Source: Sulfurimonas sp. HSL3-1
GTDB lineage: Bacteria; Campylobacterota; Campylobacteria; Campylobacterales; Sulfurimonadaceae
Direction: 5' to 3'
Length of the DNA: 64,000 nt
NCBI RefSeq assembly: GCF_039645995.1
Contig: NZ_CP147920.1
Span: 2,294,001-2,358,000 of the forward strand
Shown here: positions 4,001-59,384 of the stretch, one piece after another
Position numbering within the stretch: the stretch's first letter is position 1
Layout: every line of letters starts with the position of its first letter
Notes under the pieces: generated by a model
The model's input: the letters and a program-made list of their open reading frames with translations, nothing else
What the model was told of the DNA's origin: nothing
The model's database searches: none
Program-made: the position numbers and the translations under genes

Positions 4001-4583
4001 CCGGTCGGCTCTTCAGAATGTCGCGCAGCAGGGCGCGCAGTTGATCGTCGTTGGGGTACATCGAGAGGGCCGTCTCGATGTAGTTCATCGCCATTTTGTG
4101 GTATCCGTGGCGGTTGAGCTGGCTGAGGAAGTCGATAAACTCCTCTTTTTCGGTGATAAGCACCCGCGTTGAGAACATGATGTTCTCGAAAATCGTTTTA
4201 AAATCGCCCTGCTCTTTGACCAGCTGGCGGAAATCGTCGTAAAGAATCCCGTCTTCGTAATCCAGGCGGTGGCGCAGCGGCTCGGAAAAAAGAGAGGTGA
4301 GCTGTTCCACCGTCCCGTCCATCGTCTGCAGGATCTCGGAGATGACTGTATCGGCCTGCTCCGCATCCTCTTCGCGCAGCACTTCGTAGTAATCGAACAG
4401 CGCCTCTGCCGCCTCTTCGCCGCTCATCGCCATCTCCGCGAGGATCGCCCCGTTAAAGGCCTCTTTGGACTCGGGATAATCCTGGAGCACCTGCGCATAC
4501 TGGCGCAGCGCCTCTTCATAATTTTCCTGATTGAAACTTTCGTTAGCAAGGGCAAGCGTTTTATATTTGTTGACTGGTTTCAT
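3981..4583 (-). CDS. TPR-like conserved protein upstream of murE
   Basis: A 200-residue cytoplasmic protein made mostly of helices. The N-terminal 70 residues read as tetratricopeptide repeats (YKTLALANESFNQENYEEAL, YAQVLQDYPESKEAFNGAIL), and a further helical repeat closes the protein (NYIETALSMYPNDDQLRALL). Start ATG at 4583 is chosen for the strong AGGAAGAGC site 2-8 nt upstream. Its last 20 nt overlap murE, which suggests coupling. A similarly placed small protein lies between nifU-like and murE in other Campylobacterota, but its role is not known to me. Asp/Glu content is high, so it is probably a soluble interaction scaffold. Confidence 0.75.
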   Translation of the reverse strand: MKPVNKYKTLALANESFNQENYEEALRQYAQVLQDYPESKEAFNGAILAEMAMSGEEAAEALFDYYEVLREEDAEQADTVISEILQTMDGTVEQLTSLFSEPLRHRLDYEDGILYDDFRQLVKEQGDFKTIFENIMFSTRVLITEKEEFIDFLSQLNRHGYHKMAMNYIETALSMYPNDDQLRALLRDILKSRPVEDSAS

Positions 4584-4673
4584 GCTCTTCCTTCTTTCAA
4601 AAATCGTATGCATTTCTCTCTCTCTAAGAGATAATCTATTATAACGTATTTTTTGTTATCTCACGGCGGACGC

Positions 4674-4949
4674 CTATACGGCGTCCATCTGGTTTTCCAT
4701 GCCCATCGGCAGGTTAACGACAGAGAGTTCCGGGTGAATATCCATGCGCAGCTGGCGTTCGACACCGTATTTTAGGGTATTGCCCGAACTCCCGCACCCG
4801 ACGCAGGCCCCGCCGAGCTGTACGTAGACCACGCCGTTCTTGACGCCCAGCAGTTTGATATCACCGCCGTCCAGCGCCAGAGAGGGGCGGACTTTTTCGA
4901 TGACGTTCTTCACCGGCTCGTACAGTTCTTCATCTGTAAACGGGATCAT
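4674..4949 (-). CDS. NifU-like C-terminal domain iron-sulfur scaffold
   Basis: A 91-residue stand-alone NifU C-terminal domain, which carries an Fe-S cluster and passes it to client apoproteins. The signature is RPSLALDGGDIKLLGV followed by the cluster ligands CVGCGSSG (CxxC). Start ATG at 4949 has AAAGGA about 9 nt upstream; a GTG 24 nt further out is possible. It is followed by the TPR gene and murE on the same strand, after a 90-nt gap. Small Nfu proteins of this type are usual in Campylobacterota, where the main scaffold is a separate NifU. Confidence 0.88.
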   Translation of the reverse strand: MIPFTDEELYEPVKNVIEKVRPSLALDGGDIKLLGVKNGVVYVQLGGACVGCGSSGNTLKYGVERQLRMDIHPELSVVNLPMGMENQMDAV

Positions 4950-5051
4950 ATGTGATTGTCCTTTTTTCGACACCTGTCGACATTTTTATGATCATAAAAT
5001 AGGAAAAATGCGCTTAACAAGTCATAAATTTAACAGGGACGCGGCGATTCC

Positions 5052-6278
5052 TCAGCCTGCGGGGAAGGCTTCGAGTATTGCGGCAACATAACGTGGTTTG
5101 CGCATGCCAAGCAGTACGACGTCGATCTCCGGCCGATTCACCAAAAAGGCCAGGGCACACTCCTGCAGGGGACGGTCGCACCCCTCCAGCTGCGCGCCGA
5201 CGGCATCGCGTACTTTCAGGCTGCATTCGTGGGCGACGGCGGCGCCGTAGGCCTCCAGGAAGAGCACCAGTTGCTGCGCCAATGCACCGCGTTCGGCCTC
5301 GTCGAGTTTTTCAAGCACCTGCCGGATGTGCGGCATCACCTGGCCGTAGAGGAACGACTCATATTCGCCGACCCAGCCGAATCGGTGTTTGACTTCATCA
5401 AGCTGGTGTACCAGGTTGCGCAGCGACGCCAACGCTTCGTGATCGCACAGCTGGAGCAGTTCGTTGAGATGCGCTTCGTATGTCGGTGACGGGGGATACT
5501 CCGCCAGCCGAAACATCTGCTGACCGTGCTGGGCGTTCAGGGGACGGTTCGTCAATACCCGAAGCCCGTGTTCCCTGGCCCACGCCGCACACTTGAGCCC
5601 CTCCGTCTCCAGCAGGTTGACCGGCAGCTGCACCGTTGTAAAGTGGTTCTGGGCATTTCCCGCGCTTTCGGCCGCATGGATCGCCAGAGCCACCAGGTCT
5701 TCGTAGGGGAGAAACTCCAGGTCCGTCGCCGCTTTGGCAAAACTGTTCGAACTGACGCCGTAGCCGTCGATCTTTCCGGCAGCCGCGGCTTTTTCCAGCG
5801 CGACGAATGCCCGATAGATCCGCTCGTTCATCTCATCGAGTACTTCGCTACGCTGCCGCCCTTTGTTGAGGGCATCCAGCAGGAAATACTCCGGGTTGTG
5901 GATCAGATAGCACTCCAGCGACGCGGCCTGCAGCCGTTCCAGCGAACGCTCCAGCTGGTCCCACATGAAATCGGGGTGGATGCAGTGGAAGACGTGCGGG
6001 GCGTATTCGACGACCTCCTCGAACTGCTCCCCCGCTTCCAGGCGCGCCATCGTACTCCCCTGGATGTAGCCGAATTTACTGACGATCTGCACCTTCTCCC
6101 GCGCGTCGTCCTCCATAAAACGCAGCGCCTTTGCGATGGCACGCTCCGCCCCGCCGTCCATATAGTTGGTCGAGGTATCGATAACCCTGACGCCCGAAGT
6201 GACCGCCATACGCAACGCCTCGATATGTTCGGGGTTCTCGTCGCTGACGCGGTAGGTGCCGAAACCGATCTCCGCCAT
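5052..6278 (-). CDS. Aldo/keto reductase family protein, extended form
   Basis: A 408-residue aldo/keto reductase (NADPH-dependent (alpha/beta)8 barrel). Visible are the N-terminal GFGTYRVSDENPEH, the catalytic Asp/Tyr region RVIDTSTNYMDGGAE, Lys in QIVSKFGYIQG, the IDGYGVSSNSF strand, and the C-terminal cofactor strand DVVLLGMRKPRYVAAIL. An insert of about 80 residues with helices (LLQLCDHEALASLRNLVHQL) makes it longer than the usual 320-350. Start ATG at 6278 follows GGGAG by 5 nt. It is tail-to-head with the GltB-like gene, about 100 nt downstream of it. Substrate cannot be told from sequence. Confidence 0.8.
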   Translation of the reverse strand: MAEIGFGTYRVSDENPEHIEALRMAVTSGVRVIDTSTNYMDGGAERAIAKALRFMEDDAREKVQIVSKFGYIQGSTMARLEAGEQFEEVVEYAPHVFHCIHPDFMWDQLERSLERLQAASLECYLIHNPEYFLLDALNKGRQRSEVLDEMNERIYRAFVALEKAAAAGKIDGYGVSSNSFAKAATDLEFLPYEDLVALAIHAAESAGNAQNHFTTVQLPVNLLETEGLKCAAWAREHGLRVLTNRPLNAQHGQQMFRLAEYPPSPTYEAHLNELLQLCDHEALASLRNLVHQLDEVKHRFGWVGEYESFLYGQVMPHIRQVLEKLDEAERGALAQQLVLFLEAYGAAVAHECSLKVRDAVGAQLEGCDRPLQECALAFLVNRPEIDVVLLGMRKPRYVAAILEAFPAG

Positions 6279-48910: not shown

Positions 48911-49575
48911 GGCACGACTTGCCCGTCGCTGAGCTTGATGATCCGGCGGGCCTGTTCCACGACGTAATCGTCGTGAGAAGAGAAGAGGATCGTGATCTTT
49001 TCGACCGCGTTAAGCTGCTTCATCATCGCCATCAGGTGCTCGGAGTTGCGCGAATCGAGGTTCGCCGTCGGCTCGTCGGCCAGGATGAGCTTCGGTTTTG
49101 CCGCCACCGCCCGGGCCACGGCGACACGCTGCTGCTGACCCCCGCTGATGTGGCCGGGCATGGCATCGAGCTTCTCCTCTATCTCCAGAAGACGTGCCAC
49201 TTCCGCCACCCTCTGTTCGATCGCTTCGGGCGCAAAACCGCGCAGCTTCATAATGAAGCCGATGTTCTCGCGCACGGTGAGGACGGGTACAAGGTTATAG
49301 GCCTGGAAGACGAAGCCGATCTGCTCCAGGCGCAGCCGCGAGCGCGCCCCCTCGTCCAGGCCCGAGAGTTCGGTACCGTCGATGGTGATGGAGCCGCTGT
49401 CGACAGCGTCGAGCGCCCCGATAGCGTTGAGCAGCGTCGTTTTGCCGCAGCCCGACGGCCCCGTAATGACCCCGTACTCCCCCGTCGCGACGGCGAGGTC
49501 GATATCGCGCAGGGCGTGCACCTCGCGCTCCGTATCCTTGTAAAAATATTTGTTCACTCTGCGCAGTTCGATCAT
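48907..49575 (-). CDS. ABC ATPase, LolD/MacB type
   Basis: A 222-residue ATPase: Walker A GPSGCGKTTLLNAIG, Q-loop VFQAYNLVPVL, signature SGGQQQRVAVARA and Walker B PKLILADEPTANLDS, with the H-loop in FSSHDDY. LolD- and MacB-like type VII exporters share this pattern. It overlaps both neighbours by 4 nt (a permease upstream, the barrel gene downstream). Its partners are the two FtsX-type permeases. Confidence 0.92.
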   Translation of the reverse strand: MIELRRVNKYFYKDTEREVHALRDIDLAVATGEYGVITGPSGCGKTTLLNAIGALDAVDSGSITIDGTELSGLDEGARSRLRLEQIGFVFQAYNLVPVLTVRENIGFIMKLRGFAPEAIEQRVAEVARLLEIEEKLDAMPGHISGGQQQRVAVARAVAAKPKLILADEPTANLDSRNSEHLMAMMKQLNAVEKITILFSSHDDYVVEQARRIIKLSDGQVVP

Positions 49576-50807
49576 ACCTGTATCACCTCGATAGGATTAA
49601 GCTTTTTGAGCCTTCGCAACGGCATCAGCACCGAAACGATCGCCGCGGCGACAATGGCCAGGAAGGTGTTGGAGAAGTAGCGGCTCTTGATATCGGCATA
49701 CACGACGGCGTTGTAGCCGAAGGCCTCCAGACCCGCCGCGTATTCGCGCAGGTCGAGCCCTTGCGTCTGCAGGTACCACAGGGCGGCGTAGCTGGTGAAC
49801 GCCCCCAGCACGAAACCGACCACGCCCAGCACCAGCGCCTCCGCGGCGACCTGGGTGCGCAGCTGCGACTGGGGCGTTCCCAGTGCGATCAGGATGCCGA
49901 ACTCCCGGGTACGTTCCAACACCGAGACGAGCATGACGCCGAAGATCCCGATCAGTACGACGAGCATGACGATGGCGAAGGTGATGGAGTTGAAGATGAC
50001 CATCATCTCCTGCATCTGCTGGAGCACCGGATAGAGCGTCTGCCACGTCTCGACCTCCAGCCCCGGGAAGGCGGCCTGTAGCCGCGCGGCAACCGCTTCC
50101 GTCTGCGCAGGCACCGCCAGCCGCAGCGCCACCTGGGTCGCGCCGTTCTCCCCCAGTCCCGAAAAGGTGCGGCTGCGCGGCAGGGCGACGTAGATCGTCT
50201 GGTTGTCGATAAGCAGGTTCGACGTCTGTACGATCGCCGTCACATAGAGCGAAACGGCGCTGATATCCCCCTGGGCGTTCTGCGACGAGAAGACCAGGCG
50301 GTGTCCCACCTCGACGCCCAGGTCTTCCGCCAGTTTCTTGCCGATGGCACAGCCGTTCTGCCGCCGGCCCCAATCGATCTTCCCCGCTTTGACGAAGCCG
50401 GAGAGCTGCCCGAAGCGCTCTTCGGCCTCGAGGTCGATGCCGACCAGCCGCCCCATCGCCGACTTGCGCGCCGTCGAGGCCAATCCGGTCTGCGACAGCC
50501 GGACGGAGTAGGAGGCGACCGCCGGGTCCGTATCGAGCGCTGCCAGCAGCGGCCGGTCGTCGGCGATGGCGTACTCTAGGCTCTGGTAGAGCCGGAACTT
50601 CGGGGCATAGACGGAGATCTCGCCGCTGTCGCTGCGGATCGTGCTCTCGCGCATCGTTTTGACCATGCCGTCGTAAAGCCCCTCGATGGCGAGCATCGCC
50701 GTCATACTTCCGGCGATCATGAGGATGACGAGCCCGGAACGGCGGGCGCGGCGCCACAGGCTGTGCCACGCCATCTTCAGTGCCAATGCGAAGGTCGTTT
50801 TAGACAT
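49572..50807 (-). CDS. FtsX/MacB-type ABC permease (second of two)
   Basis: A 411-residue permease with one N-terminal helix (RRSGLVILMIAGSMTAMLAI), a large periplasmic domain (about 45-270) and three C-terminal helices (about 285-400, e.g. NSITFAIVMLVVLIGIFGVM, LGVVGFVLGAFTSYAALWYL). ATG at 50807 overlaps the preceding permease by 8 nt. Topology matches LolC/LolE and MacB, which move lipoproteins or substrates without a membrane tunnel. It pairs with the 406-residue permease. Confidence 0.88.
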   Translation of the reverse strand: MSKTTFALALKMAWHSLWRRARRSGLVILMIAGSMTAMLAIEGLYDGMVKTMRESTIRSDSGEISVYAPKFRLYQSLEYAIADDRPLLAALDTDPAVASYSVRLSQTGLASTARKSAMGRLVGIDLEAEERFGQLSGFVKAGKIDWGRRQNGCAIGKKLAEDLGVEVGHRLVFSSQNAQGDISAVSLYVTAIVQTSNLLIDNQTIYVALPRSRTFSGLGENGATQVALRLAVPAQTEAVAARLQAAFPGLEVETWQTLYPVLQQMQEMMVIFNSITFAIVMLVVLIGIFGVMLVSVLERTREFGILIALGTPQSQLRTQVAAEALVLGVVGFVLGAFTSYAALWYLQTQGLDLREYAAGLEAFGYNAVVYADIKSRYFSNTFLAIVAAAIVSVLMPLRRLKKLNPIEVIQV

Positions 50808-52020
50808 GGTGCATCGCCTCCACCGGGGTGTAGCGCTTGACGACCGCAATGGGGTAGAGGACAGCCAGCATATTGAGGGCAAAGACGACCCCCGCGTTCC
50901 AGCCGATGGTGAACCAATCAAAACGCATCGGGATCTGGTCGTCGACGATCCCGTAGTCGCGGTACGCCTCCGCGATCCCCTCGATCACCATGGGGTGCAG
51001 CTCGAAATACCAGGCGATCGGCGCCCCCACTGCCACGGAGAGCCCGACGGCCGCCGTCGCAATCAGCAGCATCTCCAGCAGTAGCAGTGCGGAGACGTTC
51101 CGGGGGGAGAGGCCGATGGCGCGCAGCATCCCCAGCTCCCGGGTCCGTCCGACGATGTTGAGGAAACTGAAGATCATGATGACAAAGAAGATGACGACGA
51201 AGAAGACCCCCATCGAGATGTAGCCGAAGACGCTGTCCACCTCCATCGCCTCCACCTGCGCATGCATCAGCACCGTCCACGGCACGGCCTCGAGCCCCTC
51301 TGCCAGACCAGCCTGCACCGCGTTGACCGTCTGCGGCAGCGCCGTGAGATCATCGACGGAAGCAACGATGTACGACGCCATATCCCCGCTCAGCATCAGG
51401 GTGTCGTAGTACGCCTTGTTTACAAACGCGGAGGAGGCGTCAAATTCGAAAAGGCCCGTTTTGAAAATGCCGACGACCCGGAAATTCTCCGCGGCGAAGG
51501 AGTCGTCCGTCGCCGTGCCGATGAGCGCCACCGTATCGCCGACCCCCACCTTCAGCCTGACAGCCAATTCGCTGCCGATGTAAAGCGCGTTGGTGTCGTT
51601 GTCCTCGAGGTAGCGCCCCTCACGGCGCGCTTCGGCCATTTTGGACAGCCGCCGTTCCCCTCCGGGGTTGATGCCCACGACCATCGCCCCGACGGAGTCA
51701 CGGGGAGTGGAGAGCAGCGCGAAACTCTCCAGGCGCGGGGCATAGGCCGCGATCCCCTCCGTGCGCGCCAACAGCGCCTCTTCCGCCGAGACATCGGTCA
51801 GCAGGTAGTCGTAACCCCCCTCTTCACGGTACCCTTTTTTATAGATATGCAGGGCGTTTTCATAGATGTCGAGGGCGCTTTTGAGCATATGTGCATGCGA
51901 ACCGTCCATCAGGGCGACGTAGACGATAAAGAGCAGGGAGCTGAAAAACGTCAGCGCAAAGGTGACGACGGTCCGCCCTTTGTAATGGAGGATGTTTTTC
52001 AGCGCCAGTCCGAACATCAT
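50800..52020 (-). CDS. FtsX/MacB-type ABC permease (first of two)
   Basis: A 406-residue permease with the same four-helix layout: KGRTVVTFALTFFSSLLFIV near the start, a periplasmic domain, then GYISMGVFFVVIFFVIMIFS and LLLLEMLLIATAAVGLSVAV. It follows the LolA-like gene by 5 nt. Two different permeases in one operon with one ATPase mirrors LolC/LolE/LolD. It carries no lipoprotein signal. Confidence 0.88.
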   Translation of the reverse strand: MMFGLALKNILHYKGRTVVTFALTFFSSLLFIVYVALMDGSHAHMLKSALDIYENALHIYKKGYREEGGYDYLLTDVSAEEALLARTEGIAAYAPRLESFALLSTPRDSVGAMVVGINPGGERRLSKMAEARREGRYLEDNDTNALYIGSELAVRLKVGVGDTVALIGTATDDSFAAENFRVVGIFKTGLFEFDASSAFVNKAYYDTLMLSGDMASYIVASVDDLTALPQTVNAVQAGLAEGLEAVPWTVLMHAQVEAMEVDSVFGYISMGVFFVVIFFVIMIFSFLNIVGRTRELGMLRAIGLSPRNVSALLLLEMLLIATAAVGLSVAVGAPIAWYFELHPMVIEGIAEAYRDYGIVDDQIPMRFDWFTIGWNAGVVFALNMLAVLYPIAVVKRYTPVEAMHHV

Positions 52021-52025
52021 GATCC

Positions 52026-52757
52026 CTAGCGCGAGTAGCGTTTAAGCGCCTGCTTCGTGAAATAGCTGCCGCTCACGCCCCGGTCGTAGACGACGTCGGA
52101 GAGAAGCACCAGCGTCTCGTTCTTCTCCTTGCCCTTCTCCAGCGGTTTGATCCGCATGACCGTCGGGACATGGTGGGTACCGAAGGTTTTGACGTCGCTG
52201 TAAAACATCTCCCGCACCTTGCTGCCGAAATCGTCGTAAAAGACGTCATGCATCTGGGTATAGGTCTGCCGATCGATCGTCGAGACGATCCGTCCCCACA
52301 CGACAGCGGCATCGGGTTTCGGGGTGAAAGCGATGGTCACCGTCTCCGCCGTCTTTTCGAGGATCTCCGCATCGTAGTCGTCGACCATCGAGCTCTCCTT
52401 AACCATATCGTCGTTGGTAAAGTCGCTTCCCATCCAGCTCTGCAGCATCATCGATGGCGGGATCTTGACGATGCGTTCGATCTTCGGCACGTACTGCCAT
52501 AGCTGCTTGTCAAGTTTCAGGAAGGTGATGCCGCGGTCTTTGGGCGGGTAAAGGATCTTCATAAAGCTCTTCGTCTTCCCTTCGGCCCAGCTCTCGATCC
52601 GCACCGTCCGCTTGTGCCGTGCCGAGGTGATGACCATCTCCAGCTTCATGTAGACGTCTTTACCGCGAAGATTGTCTTCCACTTTTTTGACAATGTCAGA
52701 CGCCTCGGAACCGAACAGCAGGAGCGTCATCGAGAGCCAGAGCAACAGTAACCGCAT
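52026..52757 (-). CDS. LolA-like outer-membrane lipoprotein-sorting protein
   Basis: A 243-residue exported protein (signal RLLLLWLSMTLLLFGSEAS) of the LolA-like group with an open beta-barrel half. Seen: DNLRGKDVYMKLEMVITSAR, ILYPPKDRGITFLKLDKQLW, YVPKIERIVKIPPSMMLQSW and MGSDFTNDDMV. Such proteins carry hydrophobic or lipid-linked cargo across the periplasm. It is first in the operon, with a TATAAT at 52785-52790 and GGGAGGG ribosome site, and is followed by its transporter genes. Confidence 0.85.
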   Translation of the reverse strand: MRLLLLWLSMTLLLFGSEASDIVKKVEDNLRGKDVYMKLEMVITSARHKRTVRIESWAEGKTKSFMKILYPPKDRGITFLKLDKQLWQYVPKIERIVKIPPSMMLQSWMGSDFTNDDMVKESSMVDDYDAEILEKTAETVTIAFTPKPDAAVVWGRIVSTIDRQTYTQMHDVFYDDFGSKVREMFYSDVKTFGTHHVPTVMRIKPLEKGKEKNETLVLLSDVVYDRGVSGSYFTKQALKRYSR

Positions 52758-54162: not shown

Positions 54163-54669
54163 TCATCGCAGCAGGATCGGTTTGACCCACTCCGGCTCGG
54201 CGTAGTCCACCTCGGGAAGGGTGTTCAGGCGGTTGGTCTGGTCGATTACCTCCCCGGTACCGGCGGGGGCGAAAAGGTAGATGCCCGCCGATGCGTTCAC
54301 GGTCTGCATCAGTGTCAATCCCTGCGCGGCGGCGAAGGCTTCGGGCCTGACGTCCGGTTGCAAACGGATCAGGACATTTCCCGTCGCGATAAAGCGGTTG
54401 CGTTCGCTCCGGCGCTCTGACGTGTAAAAGACCCGGCGGTATTCGGAGCCGGAAGAAGCCGTCTTCGCCGCCACCTCGGCCGGAACGGCCTTCACGACCC
54501 GCTTGGCCGAAGCACCGGGGGAGCGTAAGAGTGCCATTTCATCCTCTGCGCGGTAAAAAACCATCGAGGCTTTTTTCGTCTGCAGTACCTGTTTGGTCAT
54601 TACCGGAACCTCGGCCGTTGCCGCAGCCGTCAGCAACCACCCCGCCATGATTATCATACGTACCATCAT
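54163..54669 (-). CDS. Stand-alone subtilase propeptide-like protein
   Basis: A 168-residue exported protein (signal helix RMIIMAGWLLTAAATAEV). Its last 80 residues (FIATGNVLIRLQPDVRPEAF to PEVDYAEPEWVKP) look like the I9/fervidolysin-type propeptide that folds and inhibits subtilases: GxVxVxL strand, Ala/Gly helix and the closing VEYAEP-type strand. It lies 9 nt after the subtilase gene that lacks such a domain. ATG at 54669 follows AAGGGG by 5 nt. A trans-acting chaperone or inhibitor is the natural reading; it is inference. Confidence 0.7.
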   Translation of the reverse strand: MMVRMIIMAGWLLTAAATAEVPVMTKQVLQTKKASMVFYRAEDEMALLRSPGASAKRVVKAVPAEVAAKTASSGSEYRRVFYTSERRSERNRFIATGNVLIRLQPDVRPEAFAAAQGLTLMQTVNASAGIYLFAPAGTGEVIDQTNRLNTLPEVDYAEPEWVKPILLR

Positions 54670-54678
54670 ACTCACCCC

Positions 54679-57090
54679 TTAATGTCCCCGAACCTGCAGC
54701 GACCAGCTTTTAAACGTCCCCTCTGTACCGGCCCGGAGGTCTTTGACGGTCAGCGTCCATGTGCCGGCCGCACCCTCGTCAAGAGCGCGGACGGTGGAGA
54801 AGCGCCAGTTAGCGTAGGAACCCTCGAGGTAGTAAGCCCCGCCGTATGCCAGATGGCTTTCCGTTCCCTCCGGTGATGTCAGCCGGATATCAAGGTCCCC
54901 GGGACGGGCATGGTCGATGGTGACCCAGACATCGACATGTTCCACGCTCAATGCCTGCGTCTCGGTAATCGTGGACGTCACACCGGTGGCGTTCGCATCG
55001 GGAACCGTCGTATCCGCGATGTCGTTTGTCAGCTTCGGCAGCACGGTCTCCGCGCCGAGTGAAGCAAACCCTTCCGCCTTGGCGACGGCGGCTGCGGCAT
55101 CCAGCAGCCCGAAGCCGTAGTTGTGGTTGATATGCCACCCCGCACCGTTGGTCGTCCAATCGCCGTCACCCGGATCGTTTTTTCTGGCTGTCGTAGCGAG
55201 GATATAGCGTATATCGCGGTAGGTCAGGTCCGGGTTCGCACTGAGCATCAAAGCGGCGACCCCGCTGACCATGGGCACGGCCGCCGACGATCCGTTCATA
55301 TAATTGGTATAGTCGCCGTTCTCATTGCCCGGAACATCAAAATAGACCGGGAGATTCGTTTTGGGATCGAGACGGTACGTTTCAACGAAGCCGGTCGATT
55401 CAAACCCGTAGTCGTACCCGGTGTAATCCGTCGTCACAATCGCCGCTCCGTTTACGGCATCATACTGCTCACCGAACTCGCCGCCCGGCGCCGCGAGCAG
55501 AACATTCGCACCGAAATTGGCATAGGAGGAGTAACTGCCGTCCTTATCGGTGGCCGTCACGGTAATAACATAGGGGTTGTTCGCGACGCCGGCATTGTTG
55601 GCATTACCGATGTGCAACGGGGAGTAATCCGAATTGCTGCGGTCGTTCCCCGCGGCCATGACGTAGACGATCCCTTTCCCGCTGCGCCCCTGCTCCGCCC
55701 CTGTCTGTAACCCGTCGATCAGCGTCTGGTCACCATAGAGAATTTCGGAGGGGTCGCCCCAGCTGTTCGAGGAGATGTCCATCTCTTTGGAGAGCGCTTG
55801 GATCAGCGTAACGTCCGTCAGCGGCGACTGCGAGAAAACATTATAGCCCGCCAGCTTGACAAACGGGGCCACCCCTTTGACACCGACACTGTTCCATCCC
55901 GAAGCGGCGACGAGACCCGCGCAGGCCGTCCCATGCGCAGAGAGGTAGGGATCCGTAGCGAGCTGGTCCGCATCGGGCGACGGGTCGTTCGAGCCGTCAG
56001 ACCAGCGGTAGCTCTTCGTCAGGTCGAGGTTCGAAGCCAGATCCGGGTGGACGGCTTCAATACCCGTATCGACCACGCCCACGTAAATATTGCGGCGGCC
56101 CGCGTAGGACTCCCAGACTGAAGCGACATTGATGTCGTTCGGTTCTGTCGCATCCAGATGCCACTGATATTGGGTGAGAGGGTCTTCATAGACCCCGGTA
56201 TCACTGCTCATGGGGTCGGTTCCGGCAAAAAACTCGCCGTAATCACCCAGCGCATCCCCGTCGCTGTTTGCGGCTGCCGGATTCGTGCCGACCAGCAGTT
56301 CGAAATCATCAAAAAGGGCGTCGTTGTCTGCATCGTGGAAAAGATGGGTCGTTCCCGCGAACAGCTCCTGGATCGTTGTCGACGCCACGGCATCCCCATA
56401 GGACTGCGAATCGTTCAAGAGGGCCACATCCTCCATCGCACCGCCTGTGGTCAGTTTTGCCGGGTTGAATGCGCTGAGCGCCGTCGACGGGGATGCAAAA
56501 AGAAATCCGGAGAGGCGGGCGAGCACCGATTTTATCTCCGTCTCGTCCGTCAGCCCCTCTCGCCGGATCCACTCCGCCGCAATCGTGGTGAAGGCATTCA
56601 CCCTGACATTGTTGTTTAGCAGATCCGCCACTGTCACGTAAGCATATAGGCTACCCTGGACGGTTTTGACCGCTGCAGCGTCATACTGTCCATCGTCGTT
56701 CGGATCGATATCCTCACCCCCTGCAGCCTTCACCAGTACCAGCTGCGTCGATGCCAGACCGGGGAGCGAGACCGTAAATTTCCCGACCGTCTGCTCTGTG
56801 TACGGCACCAACGTCACATTGTCATCCATCAGGTCTGTTGCGGCATTGAATGGTGTCGTGACTGTCAGGTATTGCTGCTGTCCCGCCAGGTCGGTTACGG
56901 TGACCGTTGCCCCGCCGATGGGGCCTAGAGCGACACTGTTTGCGACTGTCGTTGTTGGGTCAGGTGGAACGACCGGATCATCCGGCGTTGAGGAGCCGCC
57001 GCCGGAACCGCAGCCGTGAAACAGCAATGTCAGCCCGAGAAGCACTGCCCCGCTGCCTCTCATTACCCGATCAAAACATTTCTGTCTCAC
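54679..57090 (-). CDS. Kexin-like subtilase lipoprotein with P-domain
   Basis: About 803 residues. Order: lipoprotein-type start (VLLGLTLLFHGCGSGGGSS), a beta-rich N-domain with about 200 residues, a Ca-binding stretch (DADNDALFDDFELLVGTNP), the S8 catalytic domain with Asp in VGVVDTGIEAVHPD, His in LSAHGTACAGLVA, oxyanion Asn in MAAGNDRSN and Ser in YMNGSSAAVPMVSG, then a C-terminal P-domain (RPGDLDIRLTSPEGTESHLA, WTLTVKDLRAGTEGTFKSWS). It has no inhibitory propeptide of its own. GTG at 57090 (with AAGGGG) is preferred; ATG at 57108 is possible. TATAAT at 57120-57125. Confidence 0.88.
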   Translation of the reverse strand: MRQKCFDRVMRGSGAVLLGLTLLFHGCGSGGGSSTPDDPVVPPDPTTTVANSVALGPIGGATVTVTDLAGQQQYLTVTTPFNAATDLMDDNVTLVPYTEQTVGKFTVSLPGLASTQLVLVKAAGGEDIDPNDDGQYDAAAVKTVQGSLYAYVTVADLLNNNVRVNAFTTIAAEWIRREGLTDETEIKSVLARLSGFLFASPSTALSAFNPAKLTTGGAMEDVALLNDSQSYGDAVASTTIQELFAGTTHLFHDADNDALFDDFELLVGTNPAAANSDGDALGDYGEFFAGTDPMSSDTGVYEDPLTQYQWHLDATEPNDINVASVWESYAGRRNIYVGVVDTGIEAVHPDLASNLDLTKSYRWSDGSNDPSPDADQLATDPYLSAHGTACAGLVAASGWNSVGVKGVAPFVKLAGYNVFSQSPLTDVTLIQALSKEMDISSNSWGDPSEILYGDQTLIDGLQTGAEQGRSGKGIVYVMAAGNDRSNSDYSPLHIGNANNAGVANNPYVITVTATDKDGSYSSYANFGANVLLAAPGGEFGEQYDAVNGAAIVTTDYTGYDYGFESTGFVETYRLDPKTNLPVYFDVPGNENGDYTNYMNGSSAAVPMVSGVAALMLSANPDLTYRDIRYILATTARKNDPGDGDWTTNGAGWHINHNYGFGLLDAAAAVAKAEGFASLGAETVLPKLTNDIADTTVPDANATGVTSTITETQALSVEHVDVWVTIDHARPGDLDIRLTSPEGTESHLAYGGAYYLEGSYANWRFSTVRALDEGAAGTWTLTVKDLRAGTEGTFKSWSLQVRGH

Positions 57091-57119
57091 GTATCCCCTT
57101 TTCGCCATACTTTCAACTC

Positions 57120-58949: not shown

Positions 58950-59038
58950 TGGCGGACAGACAGGGATTCGAACCCTGGGAGGTATGACCCTCGCCGGTTT
59001 TCAAGACCGGTGCATTCAACCAGCTCTGCCATCTGTCC
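58950..59038 (-). tRNA. tRNA-Ser (TGA)
   Basis: An 89-nt class II tRNA with encoded CCA. Acceptor GGACAGA/TCTGTCC, anticodon loop CTTGAAA (anticodon TGA), long variable arm, T-loop TTCGAAT. Part of a four-tRNA run Gly-Leu-Cys-Ser in transcription order. Confidence 0.95.
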
Positions 59039-59061
59039 ACAAATAAAAAGTCGGAGTTTGG

Positions 59062-59135
59062 TGGAGGCGCCACCCGGACTCGAACCGGGGATCAAGGTTT
59101 TGCAAACCCATGCCTTACCACTTGGCTATGGCGCC
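59062..59135 (-). tRNA. tRNA-Cys (GCA)
   Basis: A 74-nt tRNA with encoded CCA and discriminator T. Acceptor GGCGCCA/TGGCGCC, anticodon loop TTGCAAA (anticodon GCA). The anticodon stem (TGGGT/ACCTT) has a T-T mismatch at its base, which is slightly weak. Confidence 0.93.
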
Positions 59136-59140
59136 ACCGG

Positions 59141-59228
59141 TGGTGCCCGGAGCCGGGATCGAACCGGCACGATCGCAATGATCGAGGGATTTTAAGTCCC
59201 TTGCGTCTACCAATTTCGCCATCCGGGC
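59141..59228 (-). tRNA. tRNA-Leu (TAA)
   Basis: An 88-nt class II tRNA with encoded CCA. Acceptor GCCCGGA/TCCGGGC, anticodon loop CTTAAAA (anticodon TAA), long variable arm, T-loop TTCGATC. It lies 5 nt before tRNA-Cys. Confidence 0.95.
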
Positions 59229-59238
59229 TCAAGACACC

Positions 59239-59294
59239 AAAAAAAACCCCAACTCAAACCTCTGCTTTGAAGTCTAAGAAGTTTCAGTTGGGGT
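59239..59294 (-). terminator. Hairpin with T-run between tRNA-Gly and tRNA-Leu
   Basis: On the minus strand ACCCCAACT-G-AAAC pairs with GTTT-G-AGTTGGGGT (arms 59281-59294 and 59246-59259; one G-G mismatch), followed by eight T residues (59239-59246). It has the form of an intrinsic terminator, yet three tRNAs follow with almost no room for another promoter. Confidence 0.75.
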
Positions 59295-59309
59295 GTTTAA
59301 AAATAAAAA

Positions 59310-59384
59310 TGGAGCGGGAAACGAGGTTCGAACTCGCGACCCCAACCTTGGCAAGGTTGTGCTCTACCACTGAGCTATTCCCGC
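59310..59384 (-). tRNA. tRNA-Gly (GCC)
   Basis: A 75-nt tRNA with encoded CCA. Acceptor GCGGGAA/TTCCCGC, anticodon loop TTGCCAA (anticodon GCC), T-loop TTCGAAC. First tRNA behind the strong promoter at 59405-59433. Confidence 0.95.

Follow-up and report, generated by a model that had tools for sequence, protein, structure and literature searches.

A predicted lipid-anchored kexin/ASP-type subtilase of Sulfurimonas sp. HSL3-1 and the adjacent gene that very probably supplies its propeptide in trans

Two adjacent genes of Sulfurimonas sp. HSL3-1 raise the question of how a subtilase that seems to carry no propeptide of its own could mature, and whether the secreted protein encoded by the next gene takes the place of the missing domain. 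Both lie on the minus strand of the window, as we call the whole stretch of 64,000 nucleotides that was analysed. We consider it very probable that one encodes a lipid-anchored subtilase of kexin/ASP type and the other its separate, co-expressed and secreted ORF2-type propeptide, which would serve as a folding template and then as an inhibitor through its C-terminal Arg. The features computed here that bear on this reading are sequence and structural homology, linkage, co-divergence, the lack of a cis propeptide, fused relatives and an exact C-terminal register. The parts of the locus are as follows.

54679-57108, minus strand: lipoprotein subtilase (S8) with P-domain, 809 aa, apparently without a cis propeptide (ORF; Pfam; PDB profile search)
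57010-57108, minus strand: signal peptide of the protease, lipobox-like LLFHGC, predicted lipidated Cys33 at 57010-57012 (sequence)
56185-57009, minus strand: N-terminal region of the protease, residues 34-308, acidic DxDxD-type repeats of calcium-binding type (comparison with ortholog L018; Pfam)
55108-56094, minus strand: catalytic domain of the protease, residues 339-667, triad positions Asp347, His392 and Ser608 (Pfam; alignment)
54694-54945, minus strand: P-domain of the protease, residues 722-805 (Pfam PF01483, E 2.2e-21)
54675-54680, minus strand: Shine-Dalgarno-like AAGGGG for the small gene, sharing nucleotides with the stop codon of the protease (sequence, consensus only)
54163-54669, minus strand: probable trans-acting propeptide/chaperone, ORF2-like, 168 aa from the ATG (AF2 fold, VIA-align, Pfam, linkage)
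54613-54669, minus strand: residues 1-19 of the small protein, signal peptide assigned by eye (sequence)
54397-54612, minus strand: residues 20-91 of the small protein, N-terminal extension like that of ORF2 (VIA-align to 3wqb_B from model residue 25)
54187-54396, minus strand: part of the small protein between the N-terminal extension and the C-terminal tail (AF2, pLDDT about 81-97 by block)
54166-54186, minus strand: C-terminal tail VKPILLR of the small protein, predicted to lie in the active site with Arg168 in S1 (cis-cleavage register, VIA-align)

The protease stop codon (54679-54681) is followed after 9 nt, on the same strand, by the ATG of the small gene at 54669; the shared strand and the tight spacing support the initial annotation. 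The longer small frame (54163-54675, minus strand, 170 aa) begins with a GTG that is a possible start; the ATG appears to be the better one because AAGGGG stands 5 nt ahead of it. The short distance from the stop codon to the ATG and the overlap of AAGGGG with that stop codon make it likely that both genes are translated from one mRNA. The extent first given for the pair, 54163-57090, was right except in the choice of start codons. A few kb from the protease, at 49572-52757, genes for two permeases of FtsX/MacB type and for a LolA-like protein of outer-membrane lipoprotein sorting follow one another in the window, and a cluster of four tRNA genes (Ser, Cys, Leu, Gly) is found at 58950-59384 on the minus strand.

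The small protein had been described from its sequence as secreted, with a propeptide-like C-terminal part, and its predicted fold bears out the latter. In Pfam, its C-terminal part matches PF18492 (ORF_2_N; E 1.7e-5, 25.5 bits, curated cut-off 29.2) and PF22148 (fervidolysin prodomain; E 0.0012, 19.6 bits, curated cut-off 21); since both scores fall under the cut-off, the protein is not filed in either curated family. Seven of the ten small proteins of the genus match ORF_2_N and three the fervidolysin model. The AF2 model, of moderate quality (mean pLDDT 70; residues 48-76 of low confidence, 165-168 under 50), comprises the elements E92-103, H109-116, E118-125, E130-135, H141-148 and E154-162. 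Its best structural match in VIA-align is ORF2 bound to ASP (3wqb_B; Z 9.5, rmsd 2.5, 95 of 99 residues), covering model residues 25-168 with the N-terminal extension included; PC1/3 prodomains (Z 7.8-8.2) and subtilisin prosegments (Z 5-6) come next. Residue 168 of the model lies opposite residue 110 of PC1/3, which we take to be the last residue of that prodomain. Foldseek returned the same set with E-values of 0.01-0.05, and sequence-profile searches of the PDB, with the ten genus proteins or with all 53 separate relatives, retrieved no propeptide, so that fold comparison alone gave one. Homology to propeptides beyond chance is established by the structure comparison together with the relatives and the linkage considered below.

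The protease points to the same known system. A profile of eight proteases ranks ASP (3hjr_A, E 3e-81) above furin and kexin as its top PDB match, which it aligns in a single stretch that extends through the P-domain. In Aeromonas sobria, the ORF2 gene lies just downstream of asp and mature ASP needs ORF2, which inhibits the enzyme with an IC50 of 84 nM and whose C-terminal Gln-Pro-Lys sits at the ASP catalytic centre; such external-propeptide operons are already known in four further genera of proteobacteria, Vibrio, Shewanella, Chromobacterium and Pseudoalteromonas (PMC5638518). An HMM of the ten genus small proteins, run against a Vibrio campbellii locus of 69 ORFs (L164), recovered the gene directly downstream of the ASP-like protease with an E-value of 2.5e-4. 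After the HMM had been grown, this gene scored 3e-6 and the corresponding Pseudoalteromonas gene (L163), itself an ORF_2_N protein above the Pfam cut-off, 1.1e-5. Thus the small protein and ORF2 are homologous in fold and, through the Vibrio and Pseudoalteromonas relatives, in sequence.

Because the small protein fits ORF2 best in structure and the protease fits ASP best by profile, the pair is a new representative of the ASP/ORF2 kind, from Campylobacterota and with a protease predicted to be lipid-anchored. Both systems combine an S8 protease that has a P-domain and lacks a propeptide with a chaperone gene directly downstream, and in both small proteins an N-terminal extension precedes the propeptide-like body and the C-terminal tail, whose last residue is basic (Lys in ORF2, Arg here). 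The Sulfurimonas protease differs from ASP in its predicted lipidation, its long additional N-terminal region and its phylum; it stops about 14 residues past the ASP-matched region, and for this reason no counterpart of the ASP Arg566 part is seen. ASP/ORF2 is known from experiment, whereas the present pair is known here from sequence and predicted fold. Furin, PC1/3 and kexin share the catalytic and P-domain architecture and the prodomain fold, but these proprotein convertases carry the prodomain in the same polypeptide and cleave it off themselves, whereas here it would be a separate gene product. VvsA/VvsB of Vibrio vulnificus was set aside as a parallel, VvsA being described as chymotrypsin-like (PMC11272048).

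To survey the phylum, S8 matches were drawn from 397 Campylobacterota genomes, very long (autotransporter-like) frames being left out, and about 75 further loci were fetched. Starting from the ten sequences of the genus, the small-protein HMM was iterated over the survey loci, in which six-frame translation gave 2417 ORFs of 80 aa or more, and converged on 58 ORFs, 7 inside S8 proteins and 51 separate; with two weak matches added by hand, the separate set used below contains 53 proteins. Fused counterparts, whose occurrence in other genomes was a proposed check of the initial annotation, do exist: in L091, L106, L107, L108 and L148, the same propeptide profile is found N-terminal to the catalytic domain. 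Unlike the Sulfurimonas pair, these fervidolysin/I9-type enzymes are single polypeptides without a lipobox and without a P-domain.

The fused forms bear on the alternative that the small protein is a dedicated inhibitor only, in the manner of fungal POIA1 or malarial SUB1-ProM, and that the protease folds unaided. Stand-alone propeptide-like inhibitors beside subtilase genes do exist, SUB1-ProM being one, and are regarded as independent of chaperone activity (PMC6993865). POIA1, the yeast peptidase B inhibitor, Arabidopsis SPI-1, TgMIC5 and SUB1-ProM all present the propeptide fold as a separate gene product, as the small protein does, and neither fold nor C-terminal tail would tell the two functions apart. 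However, targets such as SUB1 retain their own cis propeptide (PMC6993865), whereas the Sulfurimonas protease has none; these inhibitors do not replace a missing propeptide, as the small protein is proposed to do. Moreover, the closest known pair needs ORF2 for maturation (PMC5638518), and relatives bear the same domain fused, as their sole propeptide. We therefore consider a purely inhibitory role improbable and favour a propeptide that both assists folding and inhibits.

The lack of a cis propeptide, also part of the initial annotation, holds on closer analysis. In Pfam, Peptidase_S8 matches residues 339-667 of the protease (E 2.6e-46) and P_proprotein residues 722-805 (E 2.2e-21), and no propeptide family matches. 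Asp347, His392 and Ser608 are invariant in the protease alignment, as is the lipobox Cys, although the lipobox itself varies (FSGC or FCGC in orthologs, LLTAC in paralogs). The signal peptide and the LLFHGC-G lipobox predict a bacterial lipoprotein, and from the lipobox alone the protease may be exposed at the surface. The surface maturation system suggested in the initial annotation gains no support from the present evidence. An AF2 model of the protease from an eight-row alignment had a mean pLDDT of 45 and was not used. About 275 residues separate Cys33 from the catalytic domain, and it could be supposed that this region, which sits at the propeptide position, is a strongly diverged cis propeptide and that the small protein does something else. 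In the ortholog L018 (genome G003, 563 aa), however, the lipobox is followed by the catalytic domain within about 30 residues; the region is almost wholly absent and there is no room for a propeptide, yet the small partner is kept with the same C-terminus. Across the lipoprotein class, the distance from the Cys to the catalytic domain ranges from 19 to 379 residues, and in Pfam none of the 61 N-terminal regions of lipoprotein subtilases in the survey matches a propeptide family, while 8 contain TSP3_bac. The corresponding regions of 21 non-lipoprotein secreted subtilases gave propeptide matches to PF22148 (6), I9 (5) and Tk-SP (2). A diverged cis propeptide is thus very unlikely; judged from sequence, the region is no propeptide, because no propeptide family matches it and L018 has a partner almost without it.

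Linkage between the two genes is conserved far beyond the window, as the separate-propeptide reading had presupposed. All 51 separate relatives in the survey loci adjoin an S8 gene on the same strand and none occurs elsewhere, compared with 232 adjacent and same-strand ORFs among 2327 others. Across the 397 whole genomes, 57 of 61 matches at E <= 1.2e-7 have an S8 match no more than 1.2 kb away; matches above E 1e-6, most of them confined to the signal-peptide part at the N-terminal end of the profile, were disregarded. Of the remaining four, two adjoin an S8 gene that is truncated or broken, and the other two are unlinked. L159 carries at 4356-5245 an intact ORF2-like gene beside a broken subtilase gene (129-aa fragment). 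The unlinked ORF2-like proteins, each of 133 aa, are encoded at L161 4194-4595 and L160 3979-4380 (genomes G215, G369). Both genomes also hold a lipoprotein S8 without a neighbour (L140, L145), and the unlinked small proteins resemble partners from the same protease clade; possibly the pair has been drawn apart here, in which case action in trans would be needed.

Within the genus, an intact small gene stands beside every protease ortholog found, and nine further pairs show the same order of protease and small gene. The genome itself encodes a second pair, 44% identical, and a close relative has three. Second paralogous pairs of the genus (L014 5171-8101, L019, L020 and L021) have chaperones ending in Tyr instead of Arg, and L020 carries two Tyr-ending pairs in near tandem. 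A profile search of genome contigs added one record, a locus of the same genus, and plasmid searches with two small proteins gave no match. Nearly all relatives of the small protein have signal-like N-termini. In L044, L095, L127, L141 and L142, the small protein has its own lipobox-like N-terminus, so that both partners may be lipid-anchored there. Proteases and partners diverge together (mirror test, r 0.79 overall; protease-first r 0.88, small-first r 0.74), a correlation reached in 0 of 2000 permutations in each case. That the small protein is a chance neighbour with a propeptide fold or a functionless remnant, for which its modest single-sequence E-values could be invoked, is scarcely credible in view of the all-adjacent distribution, the exactly conserved C-terminus, the intact copy beside every genus ortholog, the linkage beyond the genus and the co-divergence.

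Trans propeptides, called rare in the initial annotation, are less so than this suggests: besides the experimentally known A. sobria ASP/ORF2 (PMC5638518), a neighbouring small partner accompanies 52 of the 61 lipoprotein subtilases surveyed in the phylum, leaving 9 without one, and 0 of 21 other secreted subtilases. By sequence, the separate arrangement is common in Campylobacterota. The association with lipidation (Fisher p 2e-12) is descriptive, because the tree has few independent changes and the counts are not independent events; the remaining enzymes were labelled for lipobox and cis propeptide partly by eye. An exception is the lipoprotein subtilase L147 (3100-5622), which has a cis propeptide just ahead of its catalytic domain.

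The catalytic-domain tree has two clades. In the first, the protease gene mostly comes first and a P-domain is present (28 of 28 protease-first enzymes); in the second, the small gene comes first, the P-domain is absent (24 of 24), and the fused L091, L106, L107, L108, L148 and L135 are included. Five of the seven fused proteins have an Arg exactly seven residues past the conserved aromatic of an [AH]P[DN][FW] motif, and the separate small proteins end where the fused proteins carry this Arg. Ten residues from the C-terminus, 48 of 53 separate proteins have a Pro (33 of 38 at under 50% identity). Their last residue is Arg in 30, Tyr in 12, Gln in 4, Lys in 3, Leu in 2 and Met and Glu in one each.

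The most likely course of events, modelled on ASP/ORF2, would begin with export of both proteins. The beta-sheet of the small protein would then, at the membrane or within the periplasm, pack on the catalytic domain while this is unfolded or partly folded, and template its folding. VKPILLR would lie in the substrate groove as the non-primed half of a propeptide does after cleavage, and Arg168 would fill S1; the small protein would therefore be a product-like inhibitor from the start, and an autoprocessing cut would be unneeded. Its dissociation or degradation would then release the active enzyme. By analogy with ASP/ORF2, we infer the assistance to folding, the inhibition through the C-terminal residue in S1 and the release; the pair would be located in the periplasm or at the surface.

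Since its own N-terminus would lose nothing in this process, the protease would keep its lipid anchor. Dentilisin of Treponema denticola (PrtP/PrcA/PrcB) offers an analogy, being an acylated subtilase whose operon partners are needed for expression. PrcB is not known to be homologous to propeptides. PrtP has a cis propeptide, unlike the Sulfurimonas protease as read here; its activation removes the acylated N-terminus, and its anchoring is attributed to other lipoproteins (PMC8167434). By this analogy, splitting off the propeptide may preserve the anchor. The rationale fails for ASP, which is extracellular and has no lipobox, and for the Vibrio enzyme, also without a lipobox, both of which have a separate chaperone; the Pseudoalteromonas enzyme (L163) looks like a lipoprotein.

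For Campylobacterota as a whole, we put forward a proposal whose chances we regard as about even. A trans propeptide would be the normal state of lipid-anchored subtilases, allowing them to fold without loss of the anchor. The same propeptide would have moved between fused and separate states in two lineages of opposite gene order (protease first with a P-domain; propeptide first without one), and the P1 preference of each partner protease would be readable from the residue (Arg, Tyr, Gln or others) with which its separate propeptide ends. What was found described in the searchable open-access literature stops short of the wider pattern, in which one lineage has the propeptide first and a single domain occurs both fused and separate.

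The arrangement is found here throughout another phylum, where fused and separate forms of one domain exist side by side as natural pairs; consequently, the costs and benefits of splitting a propeptide are open to test. ORF2 is now bridged by sequence to ordinary subtilase propeptides. For lipoproteins, a reason for the split is suggested, in that an enzyme from which a fused propeptide is cut off would lose its anchor with it, as reported for PrtP (PMC8167434). Finally, the Arg- and Tyr-ending paralogous pairs suggest that the specificity of a protease may be predictable from the last residue of its partner.
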